Shown one piece after another: positions 51,440-54,215 of a stretch of 54,215 nt of DNA. Each line of letters opens with the position of its first letter. Position 1 is the stretch's first letter. The notes under the pieces were generated by a model, which did not search any database, had not been told where the DNA came from, and saw only the letters and a list, made by a program, of their open reading frames with translations. The translations under genes and the position numbers were made by a program. Origin of the DNA: an uncultured Pseudomonadota bacterium (GTDB taxonomy: Bacteria; Pseudomonadota; Alphaproteobacteria; RF32; CAG-239); NCBI GenBank assembly GCA_949300375.1, contig CASGEB010000006.1, positions 1-54,215 of the forward strand, read 5' to 3'.

Positions 51440-53170
51440 TCAATTGATTTTTTCAATCTGTTCTTCTTTTTCTCTTTTAAGCCAGCGGCGCGTCATTTTC
51501 AGCGCGTTTTCAAAAGTCGAGGCTGTTGAAATGTTTTGTACCAGATTTTCTTTTTCCAATGCGTCGTGCAAAACCCGGCGAGGCTGCGTCTTCATATTGG
51601 AAAGGATAATCTTGGTATTGTACGGGCGCAGACGGCGGACAAATTCCACAATGGTATTGGCACCGCTGGCGTCAATGACCGGTACATAGCCCATACGCAG
51701 AATCAGGACTTTCGGTTTCTTATCAATTTTTTTCAAAAAGCCCGAAACCTGAGAAGCAACACCAAAAAACAACGGCCCGGACAAGCGCAGCGACATAACG
51801 CCCTGCTCATGGAGAACCTGGGTTAAATCGCGCCCGCCGCCAACGTCTTCCAATACCGTTTCGTCATTGGCGATTTCGATTTCTTTGCTCATTCTGTGCA
51901 TAAATATAATGCTTGCCATCACAAAACCAACACTGATGGCCGTATTTAAATCAACCAGTATCGTCAGCAGCAGCGTTACCAGCAATGTATAGCGGTCGCC
52001 TCTCGGGCCGGTGATGAGTTTGAACATCTTATCCAAGTTCAGCATATTCCAGCCGATAATAACCAAAACAGCAGACAAACAGGCCAACGGAATAAAGCGC
52101 GCCAACGGAGACAACAAAAGCATAAACAACAGCAAAAACACACTTTGCATCATACCTGCAACCGGCGAATAGGCTTTGGCTTTGAAGTTTGTGGCCGTAC
52201 GGGCAATGGCTCCGGTTGCCGGAACCCCCATAAAGAAAGCCGAAGCAATATTGGCTATTCCTTCACCAATAAGTTCGGCATTGGAATTGTGGTTATCGCC
52301 GCTCATACCGTCAACAACCGTTGCGCTCAGCAAAGATTCAATTCCGGCCAGAAATGCTATGGTAAAAGCGCTCGGCATAACTTTTAATGCCATATCCAGA
52401 TTAAAATCAGGAAAAGCCGGCGCCGGCAGAAAATGCGGAATGCCGCCGAATTTGCTGCCGATTGTATCAACATCCAGTCCAAACAGGCTGAAAATCAAAA
52501 CCAAAACGGTGGCTCCGGCAACACTGACCAGATAAGCCGGCAGTTTTATCTTTTTTATCTGAATGTAAAAAATGCAAGCAAGAGAAAGTAAGGCAATGAT
52601 AACCGAACCCCAGCTGAATTTATCCAAATTGGCAAGATACATCTTCCATTTTGGCAGAAATTCGGCCGGAACGTTTTCTATATCAAGCCCCAGCAGGTCT
52701 TTTATTTGTGTTGAAATCAACAGCAGACCGATACCTGCCGTAAAGCCCAGAACAACCGGATACGGAATATATTTTATATAAGTCCCAAAACGCAGCAAGC
52801 CGGCCAGCATCAGAATCACGCCGGCCATCACCATAACCATGGCCAGCCCTGTGTATCCGTATTGAGCCATAACGTTAAAAATAACAACAACAAAAGCGCC
52901 GGTCGGACCGCCAATCTGATAACGGCTGCCGCCCAGAAAAGCAATGAAAAAACCGGCAACAATTGCTGTATATAAACCTTGCGCAGGTTCCACGCCGGAA
53001 GCAATGGCAAGCGCCAAAGCCAACGGAATGGATATGACGGCAACGGTCATTCCGGCAACGGCATCCCTTTTAAAATATTCTTTATTATATCCTTGTTTTA
53101 AAACTTCATACAGTTTGGGGGCAAAATTCTTTTCATAGCCCTGTATCATATTCTTGAGATATGCAAACAT
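51440..53170 (-). CDS. SulP-family anion transporter with STAS domain
   Basis: 576 residues. Membrane part with the SulP hallmarks GMTVAVISIPLALALAIASG (helix 1-2), GLYTAIVAGFFIAFLGGSRYQIGGPTGAF, quoted as GLYTAIVAG and GGSRYQIGGPTGAF, and ATVVDGMSGDNHNSNAEL, then a cytoplasmic STAS domain (about 445-555: SLRLSGPLFFGVA, VPVIDASGANTI). Transports sulfate, bicarbonate or a dicarboxylate; substrate not decidable. Membrane core and STAS domain are complete. Confidence 0.92.
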   Translation of the reverse strand: MFAYLKNMIQGYEKNFAPKLYEVLKQGYNKEYFKRDAVAGMTVAVISIPLALALAIASGVEPAQGLYTAIVAGFFIAFLGGSRYQIGGPTGAFVVVIFNVMAQYGYTGLAMVMVMAGVILMLAGLLRFGTYIKYIPYPVVLGFTAGIGLLLISTQIKDLLGLDIENVPAEFLPKWKMYLANLDKFSWGSVIIALLSLACIFYIQIKKIKLPAYLVSVAGATVLVLIFSLFGLDVDTIGSKFGGIPHFLPAPAFPDFNLDMALKVMPSAFTIAFLAGIESLLSATVVDGMSGDNHNSNAELIGEGIANIASAFFMGVPATGAIARTATNFKAKAYSPVAGMMQSVFLLLFMLLLSPLARFIPLACLSAVLVIIGWNMLNLDKMFKLITGPRGDRYTLLVTLLLTILVDLNTAISVGFVMASIIFMHRMSKEIEIANDETVLEDVGGGRDLTQVLHEQGVMSLRLSGPLFFGVASQVSGFLKKIDKKPKVLILRMGYVPVIDASGANTIVEFVRRLRPYNTKIILSNMKTQPRRVLHDALEKENLVQNISTASTFENALKMTRRWLKREKEEQIEKIN

Positions 53171-53419: not shown

Positions 53420-53516
53420 CAGCTTGTTTTAATAGTCATCCCCGGGCGGCTTGTTTTAATAGTCATCCCCGGGCGGCTTGTTTTAATGGTCATCCCCGGG
53501 CTGCGACCCGGGGATC
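53420..53516. repeat. Three 27-bp tandem repeats joined to a CCCGGG palindrome
   Basis: Units 53420-53446, 53447-53473 and 53474-53500 differ by one or two bases and each ends in GTCATCCCCGGG. The last one runs into CTGCGACCCGGGGATCC, completing a palindrome. Same layout as 10129-10210, but the 15-bp filler between the CCCGGG parts is different (CGGCTTGTTTTAATA here). Lies in the leader between promoter and cysteine-rich gene. Confidence 0.88.
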
Positions 53517-53550
53517 CAAATAAACAATAAAGCCTTATGATTGACTTGGA

Positions 53551-53571
53551 TTGCCGGATCTAGTCCGGCAA
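53551..53571. repeat. Second type of dispersed palindrome
   Basis: TTGCCGGA-TCTAG-TCCGGCAA perfect 8-bp stem, followed by TGAC; a variant of the scattered alphaproteobacterial intergenic palindromes. It may fold in the leader RNA upstream of the gene at 53618. Confidence 0.6.
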
Positions 53572-53617
53572 TGACGGTACACAGAATGAAACAGTACTTT
53601 ATTATGGGAGAAAGCCG

Positions 53618-54215
53618 ATGAAGAAGATAAACACTATGCTACACATGAAACTAAACGCTGCGGTGTCGGTATTTTCTATCGCTGCCGCTTTCTCGGTCTT
53701 TCTCGGTCTTTCTCCCGCCCTCTAATGCCTATGGTGGCATCTGCTTTTTGCCCGACTGTAATTTGGACAGCACCTCGTTCGATGATGTCAACTCCGATTC
53801 TTCCTGGTGTCTGGACAACGGTTATTATTTCTCCTGTCCCGAGGGTACTTCTCCTGATTATTCTCAAACCTGCCCGCGTGATGAGAGTTATACCAAATGT
53901 TCCTCCGAGCAATGGTGCATTGACAACGGATACACAAAATCCCCGCAAGCCTGTTACGACCTCGGCCCGACCTGGTTTCCCCAAGGCCTTTGCCCGAAAG
54001 GCTTTGACCTTTACAAATCCTGTATCGAAGACACCGCCCAGGCCTGCGAGGACAAAGGCTATCTCAACAACTGTTCCCGCCCCGACAAGACCGAAATTTG
54101 CGAATGGAACTCTTCCTTTGCAAAATGCTGCAACGACACCGAATCAAACGGATGTCCCGAGAACTCGAAAGTTTCCGGCTGTGAAGACGGCGCGATTGTC
54201 GGGCAGGACACCTGC
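53618..54215 (+). pseudogene. Cysteine-rich secreted protein, out of frame through a 10-bp duplication in its signal peptide (runs off the window)
   Basis: ATG at 53618-53620 behind GGGAG (7-nt spacing). As written, the frame makes 35 residues and stops at TAA 53723-53725. If one copy of the 10-bp repeat (53691-53710) is dropped, the ATG is in frame with an open reading frame to the window end (196 codons). The restored start is a good signal peptide: basic N-terminus, core AAVSVFSIAAAFSVF, and cleavage site SNA-YGG. The mature part has 18 cysteines in about 165 residues and a repeated CxD(N/K)GY motif (CLDNGY, CIDNGY, CEDKGY, 36 and 43 residues apart). No ATG exists in the downstream frame to start a secreted form. 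Phase-off state of a switching gene, a fixed frameshift, or a sequencing error are the options. Confidence 0.72.
53691..53710 (+). repeat. 10-bp perfect tandem duplication inside the signal-peptide codons
   Basis: TCTCGGTCTT occurs twice in a row (53691-53700, 53701-53710); the period extends to partial units on both sides (TT before, TCTC after, 53689-53714). Ten is not a multiple of three, so each gain or loss of a unit changes the frame. Confidence 0.95.

Follow-up and report, generated by a model that had tools for sequence, protein, structure and literature searches.

Does a short tandem repeat at the end of contig C6 switch the secretion of a cysteine-rich protein on and off, or has it simply broken one copy of a multigene family? 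The window, i.e. the whole stretch of 54,215 nucleotides that was analysed, belongs to a source genome (G000) of 1.64 Mb in 57 contigs. A sequence-only reading had described two exact 10-bp copies at 53691–53710 that put the ATG at 53618 out of frame with a long cysteine-rich frame, and had taken the locus to be a contingency locus in its OFF state, with one or four copies giving the ON state.

Repeat and reading frames at the contig end

The features needed for the argument are the following:

51440–53170, minus strand: gene for a putative SulP-type transporter; divergent neighbour used for synteny
53618–53725, plus strand: truncated reading frame with a signal-peptide start, 35 residues, premature TAA at 53723–53725
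53636–53652, plus strand: 17-nt motif ATGCTACACATGAAACT, near-invariant in nucleotide sequence among family genes, with 91 copies across G000, G004, G005 and G006
53685–54215, plus strand: cysteine-rich family frame, out of frame with the ATG at 53618, open to the contig end
53688–53714, plus strand: tandem repeat of CTTTCTCGGT, 2.7 copies, within the signal peptide's hydrophobic core; one unit more than every paralogue
53725–54213, plus strand: overlapping out-of-frame ORF, the ATG of which overlaps the TAA (TAATG)

The repeat is present as described, but it begins three bases earlier and is slightly longer, forming an exact array of period 10. The frame of the ATG at 53618 translates to MKKINTMLHMKLNAAVSVFSIAAAFSVFLGLSPAL* and, as had been read, does not continue into the cysteine-rich frame, which matches intact paralogues and contains no stop up to position 54215; the 3′ end of the gene lies beyond the contig. 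Alignment with three close copies from the same genome shows a gap of exactly 10 bases at the repeat site, and in these copies the signal peptide, the SNA-YGG cleavage region, and the cysteine-rich frame are read in one piece. The extra 10 bases are therefore a real difference and not a chance fit, as had been argued, and the cysteine-rich frame is, to judge from the aligned copies, a real coding frame. The close copies also bear out the proposal that a single unit joins the signal peptide and its SNA-Y cleavage site to this frame. The alignments thus uphold the description of a signal-peptide gene for a predicted cysteine-rich secreted protein, frameshifted by a 10-bp tandem unit for which slippage is a plausible origin.

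Re-initiation of translation at the ATG that overlaps the TAA was considered and rejected; the ORF at 53725–54213 is probably without meaning, since intact paralogues have the same long open frame. Contig C37 was likewise considered as the missing 3′ end and rejected, because it differs at about 10 of the shared 249 bases and matches exactly in only 24 end bases.

The cysteine-rich family and its start motif

Close copies of the gene are present elsewhere in the source genome (C9:41518, C9:9019, C29:17848, and C49:1–438 on the minus strand), together with more distant ones. The three aligned copies read MxxxNTMLHMKLNAAVSVFSIAAAFSVFLPxSNA-YGGICFLPDC... in one frame, and intact family proteins reach up to 400–500 residues. 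Members combine the start motif MLHMKLN, a hydrophobic core, an SNA/SxA cleavage site, G(I/V)CFLPDC, and a cysteine pattern; only in the window copy are these elements out of frame. The start motif has 14 occurrences in the source genome and 17, 32, and 28 in three more genomes of its genus (91 in total, in four species); it was not found in three further genomes of the genus or in 145 others from the same taxonomic family. Among 56 distinct starts that were read, 53 lead in frame from the signal peptide to FLPDC, contig ends interrupt two more, and the window copy alone is broken; five fuzzy-motif matches marked 'BROKEN' (L116, L117, L118, L125, and L132) were left out as non-members.

Two intact paralogues, like the fragment in the window, had no match in Pfam or NCBIfam at E ≤ 1, a search with one intact paralogue gave none in the PDB, and for six further homologues the only family match was a single insignificant one in Pfam. 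Structure prediction for an intact homologue from a 14-row alignment was useless (pLDDT 37, pTM 0.25). These genes form a genus-restricted, dispersed multigene family of predicted secreted, cysteine-rich proteins that has no database family.

The motif ATGCTACACATGAAACT, which 148 further genomes from the taxonomic family lack, is near-invariant even at synonymous sites: its Leu codon is CTA in all members that align properly, although CTA makes up 1.8% of Leu codons in the long ORFs of the window, while these genes differ freely in their codons for FLPDC. The motif is likely to reflect either a shared nucleotide-level element, possibly a regulatory one, or gene conversion that homogenises the gene starts, for which it may be an anchor. 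The consensus RNA fold of the family start region shows no structure, and Rfam gave only a sub-threshold match in the last 1 kb, which was taken as chance. The frameshift itself is ordinary; the family that it exposes offers a lead on the dealings of these uncultured bacteria with hosts, neighbours, or predators and, together with the motif, on the co-regulation or homogenisation of such families.

Origin of the extra unit

In G006, G004, and G005, a family gene that is in frame and has one unit lies on the upstream side of the SulP orthologue and divergent from it; the G006 transporter is 99% identical to that of the window, and in G005 one further gene lies between the two. No family gene stands beside the SulP orthologue in G001 and G003, which are without the family. 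The 27-bp doubled repeat occurs only once, in the window, among seven genomes of the genus, even when two mismatches are allowed. In the one-unit state, the 7-bp direct repeat CTTTCTC is present twice, 10 bases apart; this half repeat is broken in the G006 syntenic copy (CTTTCTCGGTTCTTCTC), and most family members also have no perfect 7-bp repeat.

These observations are best accounted for by a recent slippage frameshift, which would make the window copy an isolated null allele within a redundant family rather than part of a conserved switch (probability about 0.6). Slipped-strand mispairing between the two CTTTCTC copies would duplicate the 10-bp unit within the signal-peptide core, and mispairing with 7 bp of homology would yield exactly the observed 27-bp array. 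The shift of frame would end translation after 35 residues, so that no secreted protein would come from the window copy, which is predicted to be silent because its product would be a truncated signal peptide; one further slip could reverse the duplication, as with any such duplication. The event would be recent, since the downstream frame still bears the mark of purifying selection, with a dN/dS (over 106–156 codons) of 0.04–0.08 against six of seven close copies and of 0.28 against the more diverged C9:9019 copy. Sporadic slippage is supported by these low ratios, the 7-bp homology, the intact state of nearly all other starts, the uniqueness of the 27-bp repeat, and the intact one-unit syntenic genes; counting against it, a gene that spends much of its time ON would also show a low dN/dS and no further damage, the 3′ end lies beyond the contig, and family repeats are prone to misassembly here. 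As in ordinary short tandem-duplication frameshifts (slippage pseudogenes), the duplication lies between short direct repeats at a single locus with intact relatives; the sole difference seen is the absence, so far, of damage to the frame downstream. A single additional unit, confined to one copy, counts as ordinary mutation as long as reads do not reveal a mixture of states.

The main rival, which we consider unlikely, is an artefact of assembly or of strain mixture: the locus is one of several near-identical repeats and ends its contig, and assembly would have made the second unit or joined it wrongly. It draws its weight from another family copy in the same assembly, on C37 (L012:412–457 and 784–840), where exact 23-bp and 28-bp tandem duplications with 0–1 base of homology flank a fragment of about 370 bp and resemble unmerged contig overlaps, their sum of 51 being a multiple of three as such overlaps would give. 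The window copy, too, stands at the very end of its contig, and many contigs of the source and related assemblies break in the repeated family. In about 480 kb sampled from the source genome, exact in-ORF tandem duplications of at least 10 bp and not a multiple of three are few (a count that leaves out intergenic-type repeat arrays): those of the window and C37 fall in family copies, and one 11-bp case lies elsewhere (L117:6998). The source assembly may thus err within the family, and the window duplication cannot count as proven. However, its 7-bp homology and its shortness fit slippage better than an artefact, 27 bp being very short for an unmerged overlap, and a 99-base end overlap between C37 and C49 suggests a long k-mer, which would not make the 27-bp repeat from one-unit reads. 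Switching of secretion by slippage of the 10-bp unit is more doubtful still. The unit is not a multiple of three, the frame behind it is conserved, and its position in a signal-peptide core within a dispersed family recalls the neisserial opa genes, in which CTCTT pentamers in the leader-peptide coding region vary in number to give phase variation at a rate of about 1e-3 per cell and generation (PMC3960869). The likeness extends to a pyrimidine-rich tandem unit within the coding region of a secreted or surface family. In contrast to opa, a multi-copy array is seen in the window alone, at only 2.7 copies, all other family members having one unit or a degraded form. The claimed OFF state of a contingency locus is thus not borne out: no family member with two or more units was found among paralogues and relatives in four species, in three species the syntenic copies have one unit and an unbroken frame, no second allele of the locus was seen, and the 7-bp repeat is conserved neither in most members nor in the syntenic orthologue. 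The arithmetic by which one or four copies restore the frame is correct, but four copies need not be ON, because they would place an arginine in the hydrophobic core (...VFLGLSRSFSVFL...). Contingency switching is a possibility without support, and there is no sign of the site being kept for this purpose. A broader scheme, in which an opa-like dispersed family of 14–32 start motifs per genome would be controlled through the shared 17-nt early-coding element and through stochastic loss or gain of the 10-bp unit at slip-prone members, appears very improbable.

Variation and repeats around family genes

In some family members (L054, L074, L081, L101, and L102 in G006; L049/L076 in G004) an additional segment, FTSSALAAQPLLQIPPEQRGLLSIELPTDASAARLAG, separates the signal peptide from GICFLPDC, which we read as an exchange of modules around the cleavage site. 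Downstream of family genes, for example at L002:3038–3478 and L003:3111–3734 and at other family loci, lie short companion genes (such as MRKGMLITVAGMALLAGTADVRAACIPT...), which have in common with the long family proteins the cysteine domain at the C terminus of the latter. A dispersed intergenic repeat, TCATCCCCGGGCTGCGACCCGGGGATCC...GCCGGATCTAGTCCGGCAATGAC, is found at 53422–53580 of the window and in dozens of places in the source genome, near family genes, where it often forms short tandem arrays of 25–29 bp.
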